The notes under the pieces were generated by a model. The model worked only from the letters and a program-made list of their open reading frames with translations. It ran no database searches and had not been told where the DNA came from. From a virus, in the IMG/VR virus record IMGVR_UViG_3300047496_000057, positions 1 to 48,591 of that record: a stretch of 48,591 nt of DNA; one strand, 5' to 3'. How positions within the stretch are numbered: position 1 is the stretch's first letter; the number at the start of each line of letters is the position of its first letter. Position numbers and translations under genes: made by a program. Shown here piece after piece: positions 1,901 through 2,056 of the stretch.

Positions 1901-1986
1901 TGTACCTGGTGATAGAGAACTATTTCATCACTCGCTGTAAACGATCGCACTTAAATGTGCAAAATAGTTTTCGCTTGTTCCGGTAA
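1901..1986 (+). ncRNA. Y RNA-like unit 1 (no tRNA mimic)
   Basis: Lower helix: UACC-GG (1903-1909, U1907 bulged) pairs with CCGGUA (1980-1985). Upper helix: 1915-1925 pairs with 1962-1972 (11 bp, one G-U). They are separated by an asymmetric internal loop, UGAUA (1910-1914) opposite GCUUGUU (1973-1979). The same frame recurs in the next three units, with different helix sequences but pairing kept. The apical part (1926-1961) holds a small GCAC/GUGC hairpin. Known Y RNAs bind Ro through such an end helix with a bulge and internal loop; assignment here rests on that analogy and the adjacent Ro gene. Confidence 0.7.
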
Positions 1987-1988
1987 AA

Positions 1989-2056
1989 TTTGTATCTGGT
2001 GTAAGGTGATGGATACATCTTGGGGATATACACCCATCGCCGATTGTTCCGACAAG
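1989..2056 (+). ncRNA. Y RNA-like unit 2 (minimal hairpin)
   Basis: Lower helix: C1996-GG1998-1999 with U1997 bulged, pairing with CCG (2049-2051), extended by UUGU/ACAA. Upper helix: GGUGAUGG (2005-2012) with CCAUCGCC (2034-2041), 8 bp with one wobble. The internal loop is UGUAA (2000-2004) against GAUUGUU (2042-2048), close to unit 1. The cap is a 21-nt loop with no tRNA features. This is the shortest unit, probably only the Ro-type helix. Confidence 0.65.

Follow-up and report, generated by a model that had tools for sequence, protein, structure and literature searches.

Ro60 and its Y RNAs are conserved from bacteria to people, and the roles of the different parts of Y RNAs are unsettled. 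Y RNAs encoded beside Ro are already known from both bacteria and phages. A 2014 survey reportedly found one or more tRNA-like Y RNAs in each species, implying that other Y RNAs are without this module. In the bacteria studied, the two parts of the Y RNA contact different proteins: Rsr sits on the basal stem and PNPase on the tRNA-like domain (PMC8394870; PMC4726728). In vertebrate Y RNAs, the bulged lower stem together with the nearby internal loop forms the Ro60 site (PMC4726728). Listeria phage CKA15 transcribes unannotated RNAs at high levels ahead of an Rsr-like gene and in its direction. These RNAs have strong sigma-A-like promoters, and the authors offered Y RNAs as one possibility only (PMC12282133).

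We analyzed a 48,591-nt stretch of viral DNA (hereafter the window) and found four tandem Y RNA-like units on the plus strand at 1903-2328, directly upstream of a Ro60/TROVE gene. The four units are separated by linkers of 7-9 nt, and no long open frame was found on the plus strand across 1903-2328. The downstream gene (2362-3669, plus strand) encodes a 435-aa protein that matches Pfam TROVE (E 1.7e-12) and the RNA-binding protein family PHROG 850 (E 3e-40). It also matches Pfam VWA_2, and the MIDAS DxSxS residues D292, S294, and S296 are invariant. The predicted structure of this Ro protein (mean pLDDT 86) matches the folds of 9kop, 9l5y (Ro60 of Thermus phage phiLo), 1yvp (RNA-bound Ro autoantigen), and 2nvo (Deinococcus Rsr).

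The first-pass annotation had described units 1 and 2 as minimal Y RNAs, which keep a lower helix, a bulged U, an internal loop, and an upper helix, and have small loops in place of the tRNA-like module. We recovered all of these elements, except that the lower helix of unit 2 is mismatched. In unit 1 (1903-1985, plus strand), the lower helix 1903-1906:1982-1985 has 4/4 pairs, followed by bulged U1907, the pairs GG1908-1909:CC1980-1981, and an internal loop of 5/7 nt (1910-1914/1973-1979, UGAUA/GCUUGUU). Above it lie an 11-bp upper helix (1915-1925:1962-1972) and a tip of two small hairpins, one of which is a 3-bp stem with the loop CUGUAAA. With 83 nt, unit 1 exceeds the usual 60-65 nt of minimal units. 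Unit 2 (1993-2054, plus strand) is 62 nt long. Its lower helix 1993-1996:2051-2054 has 3/4 pairs with one A-C mismatch, followed by bulged U1997, GG1998-1999:CC2049-2050, an internal loop of 5/7 nt (2000-2004/2042-2048, UGUAA/GAUUGUU), and an 8-bp upper helix (2005-2012:2034-2041). The apical 21 nt of unit 2 contain a UUGGG-type loop, and the tip has almost the same sequence as a unit at L160:404-464. Both units thereby present a Ro-binding-type lower stem, consisting of a helix, a one-base bulge, and an adjacent internal loop, and this stem covaries in relatives. No D or T arm was found in units 1 and 2, and neither unit had an Rfam match even at E 10, YrlA (RF02553) and vertebrate Y RNA (RF00019) included. 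Compared with shuffled sequence, their folding energies are not distinctive (z of -1.8 for unit 1 and -0.4 for unit 2), so the units cannot be proved from a single sequence and the proof has to be comparative.

We therefore turned to covariance model R1, built from 21 aligned short units of other contigs with the window left out. Across the whole 48.6 kb window, on both strands, R1 matched unit 2 (46.9 bits, E 3e-9), unit 3 (43.2 bits, E 2e-8), and unit 1 (41.6 bits, E 5.7e-8, rounded 6e-8), the last also supported by its fold, and partially matched unit 4 (26 bits, E 3e-4). Beyond the four units, no R1 match was found on either strand. Outside the window, R1 gave 158 matches in 69 Ro loci and 101 in 36 further loci, all of them on the Ro strand wherever a phage locus was oriented by Ro; crAss001 and a Rhizobium phage, whose Ro loci are distant, gave no match. 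In isolated-phage DNA, units 1 and 2 themselves were unmatched, and the matches fell on the tRNA body of unit 3.

Among the 21 aligned units, 96.6% of cells pair, the covariation score is 0.82 versus at most 0.16 for slid registers, and both sides change in 12 of 14 pairs, a covariation count biased by the use of a pairing descriptor to pick the units. Because of that pairing rule, we added a motif-only test on 53 non-redundant matches chosen by sequence motif without demanding pairing; a single match was on the minus strand. Here, the lower helix was paired in 96%, whereas shuffling gave 50% on average and at most 59%, and the bulge was T in 52/53. Of the distinct matches in the motif-only search, 53/54 lay on the Ro strand. 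Further, in a reverse test with a Ro-blind core DNA pattern, all six IMG/VR contigs that lay outside the Ro set and passed the structure filter encode TROVE. These results point to structural selection on both helices of the minimal units in relatives. Loss of helix pairing in related phages had been named at the outset as evidence that would count against the units; instead, pairing is retained there, with compensatory changes.

The two remaining units bear tRNA-like modules. Unit 3 (2064-2193, plus strand) is a long Y RNA with canonical arm order, that is, D arm, anticodon-position hairpin, and T arm. Within it, 2105-2166 gives an Rfam tRNA match of 41.3 bits and shares 81-86% identity with phage tRNA-Ile genes. 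The canonical order and the tRNA-Ile identity together suggest that unit 3 arose when a minimal unit took up a tRNA-Ile body as its tip. At L194:3364-3487, another long Y RNA with canonical arm order resembles an initiator-type tRNA by eye. Unit 4 (2201-2328, plus strand) is a YrlA-like long Y RNA with a permuted module, the T arm preceding the D arm, and this order is common to most long units in alignment A4. Unit 4 scores 117.5 bits with model R2, which contains unit 4 itself and is therefore not independent, and 38.3 bits with Rfam YrlA RF02553, whose gathering score is 69. Elsewhere in the window, the minus-strand region 42802-43149 holds a tRNA-Thr called by ARAGORN (42960-43035) and two further adjoining Rfam tRNA matches.

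To describe the arrays as a whole, we combined R1 and R2 matches and counted 285 units across 93 loci, among them that of the window, with some near-duplicates remaining (e.g., L195 and L200). Each locus has 1 to 8 units. Unit lengths peak at 60-69 and 120-134 nt, and about half of the 285 units are 53-85 nt long. Units of at most 85 nt are mixed with longer ones in 73 of the 93 loci, stand alone in 15, and are absent from the 5 loci with longer units alone. The coexistence of long and minimal Y RNAs in one phage, which the first-pass annotation had valued as a direct test of what the tRNA module adds, is thus real, but it is the rule for this Ro subfamily and not special to this phage. Nor do related phages keep unit number and order, as the annotation had asked: both vary across loci, and the window, with two short units followed by two long ones, differs from L159, L161, and L165, where long precedes short.

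Genome searching with R1 misses long units; in most loci that had seemed short-only, long units appeared once R2 was applied, and the short-only claim was reduced to the 15 loci. Among these are five long contigs searched whole (L164, L015, L020, L198, and L216), possibly fragments, in which short units alone were seen. Minimal units may stand alone in some phages. There is also an intermediate class of about 89 nt (L162:3373-3462, L160:307-396, L194:3268-3356, L167:721-809, and L202:3364-3452), some members of which have a T-arm-like hairpin; L167 and L202 have another, common double hairpin.

The same short and long units occur in Ro loci on contigs of bacterial genomes, recorded as Acidobacteria, Alphaproteobacteria, Desulfobacterales, and other groups. 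Arrays of this kind are found in phages of cultured hosts too, namely Xanthomonas phage Olaya (L152), a Brevundimonas phage (L154), and Caulobacter phage CcrColossus (L155). In all three, the array sits in a mostly unannotated gap upstream of the Ro gene, and an annotated tRNA-Gln of CcrColossus overlaps one of its units.

A strong sigma-70-like promoter, TTTACA-16-TATAAT (1867-1894, plus strand), matches the consensus at 11/12 positions, and its -10 end lies 8 nt upstream of unit 1. A short open frame at 1699-1885, potentially encoding a small membrane protein, stops just upstream of the array and contains the -35 box. In related arrays, a good promoter ends within 14 nt upstream of 32% of first units, compared with 0.9% of random positions and 0% of inner units, and the 143 short linkers searched between units yielded no terminator. 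With promoters restricted to first units and linkers free of terminators, the window array looks co-transcribed from one promoter.

Taken together, we favor, at a probability of about 0.6, reading units 1 and 2 as functional minimal Y RNAs, which would be co-transcribed with the tRNA-bearing ones, bind the neighboring phage Ro, and serve as a gate or competitor with respect to a PNPase-type machine. This reading draws on sequence comparison and on analogy with the studied bacteria. Units 1-4 would be transcribed together; processing within the 7-9 nt linkers would then probably release the individual RNAs, and units 1 and 2 would bind the Ro encoded next door. Since minimal units have the part that engages Rsr in those bacteria and lack the part that engages PNPase, they would be expected to fill Ro without bringing in PNPase or an equivalent partner. 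They would thereby lower the fraction of Ro given over to a PNPase-type machine, with the short-to-long ratio tuning what Ro does. By this analogy, competition for Ro or a gate role, both raised in the first-pass annotation, is plausible, and PNPase could be a candidate partner of the phage Ro. Counting against this reading, the minimal units have recurrent tip types, which pure Ro occupancy does not need; the lower helix of unit 2 is imperfect, unit 1 is over the usual length, and R1 leaves the crAss001 and Rhizobium phage Ro loci unmatched.

The mismatch in unit 2 would also suit the suggestion, made in the same annotation, that units 1 and 2 are remnants of duplicated long units, which lost the tRNA module and drift neutrally, as would the differences in unit number and order among relatives. 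However, both helices covary, with compensatory changes throughout, and the pairing in the motif-only sample far exceeds that of shuffled sequence. The tip of unit 2 is almost unchanged in L160, where Ro has about 66% identity, and short units are seen alone in some contigs. We therefore consider decay very improbable. Another possibility is that the array belongs to the leader of the Ro mRNA, where bound Ro would feed back on its own translation and free RNAs would be unneeded. The array ends 33 nt upstream of the Ro start codon with no terminator found between them, and a hairpin at 2336-2356 (plus strand) pairs GCCUCU with the Ro Shine-Dalgarno sequence AGAGG(U). The AAGCCY...GGAGG arrangement recurs in several of the closest relatives, and a hairpin in which GCCUC pairs with the Ro Shine-Dalgarno sequence lies upstream of Ro in most of them (L158, L159, L162, L163, L164, and L167). 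The hairpin was not recurrent outside the closest relatives; translational control of Ro through it is possible. In contrast, an intrinsic terminator separates the array from Ro in 7/81 loci (control 0), including the close relatives L160 and L161, so in some relatives the array transcript looks separate from the Ro message. In some loci, units follow the Ro gene or are separated from it by hundreds of bases. A purely cis-acting leader appears unlikely.

The tips lead to a further alternative, in which minimal Y RNAs present anticodon-arm-like or other tips on Ro, as anticodon-nuclease bait or target selectors, and the tip rather than occupancy matters. Tips with the anticodon-loop pattern CUNNNAA occur in 29/112 minimal units (shuffled mean 10, maximum 21) and UUGGG-type tips in 13/112 (shuffled mean 2, maximum 8), the motifs having been noticed first and then tested on the same units. 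About half of the minimal tips fit neither type, however, and within the window a CUNNNAA-type loop is present in unit 1 only, on its 3-bp stem. We regard display by the tip as a doubtful account of these units. A broader idea, for which we have similarly little confidence, would make minimal Y RNAs a distinct array-encoded class with exchangeable tips, which may be anticodon-arm-like, UUGGG-type, or whole captured tRNA bodies. Ro would be the common holder and the tip would pick the partner or target; some long Y RNAs would come from tRNA capture into a minimal unit, and the minimal form would not come from decay.

What appears to be new is that, within this Ro subfamily, minimal units outnumber the longer ones, are under structural selection, and have recurrent tips, along with the apparent resemblance of unit 3 to a captured tRNA-Ile body and the long contigs in which short units alone were seen. 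Such natural arrays, with a bare Ro-binding stem beside tRNA-bearing forms, offer a ready comparison of what the tRNA module contributes. If minimal units suffice in some phages, the tRNA-like domain would be dispensable for Ro function, contrary to what the 2014 survey is said to have found.

Compared with known systems, units 1 and 2 share the lower stem, single-base bulge, and nearby internal loop of the vertebrate Y RNAs hY1, hY3, hY4, and hY5; the bulge is U in the window and C in the vertebrate RNAs, and a sequence-family match and detectable homology are absent. The array resembles the CKA15 RNAs in its strong promoter and in preceding, in the same orientation, a gene of the Rsr type, a likeness by description and not by sequence. 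Salmonella YrlB and other additional bacterial Y RNAs likewise provide a second Y RNA in an operon with a tRNA-like one, which by description makes them a lead only. YrlA-type Y RNAs (RF02553; Salmonella YrlA) also lie beside a Ro60 orthologue and form a long stem from both ends, and unit 4 has the same T-arm-before-D-arm module. Unlike YrlA, units 1 and 2 are without the tRNA-like domain, and the window units form a tandem array upstream of Ro.
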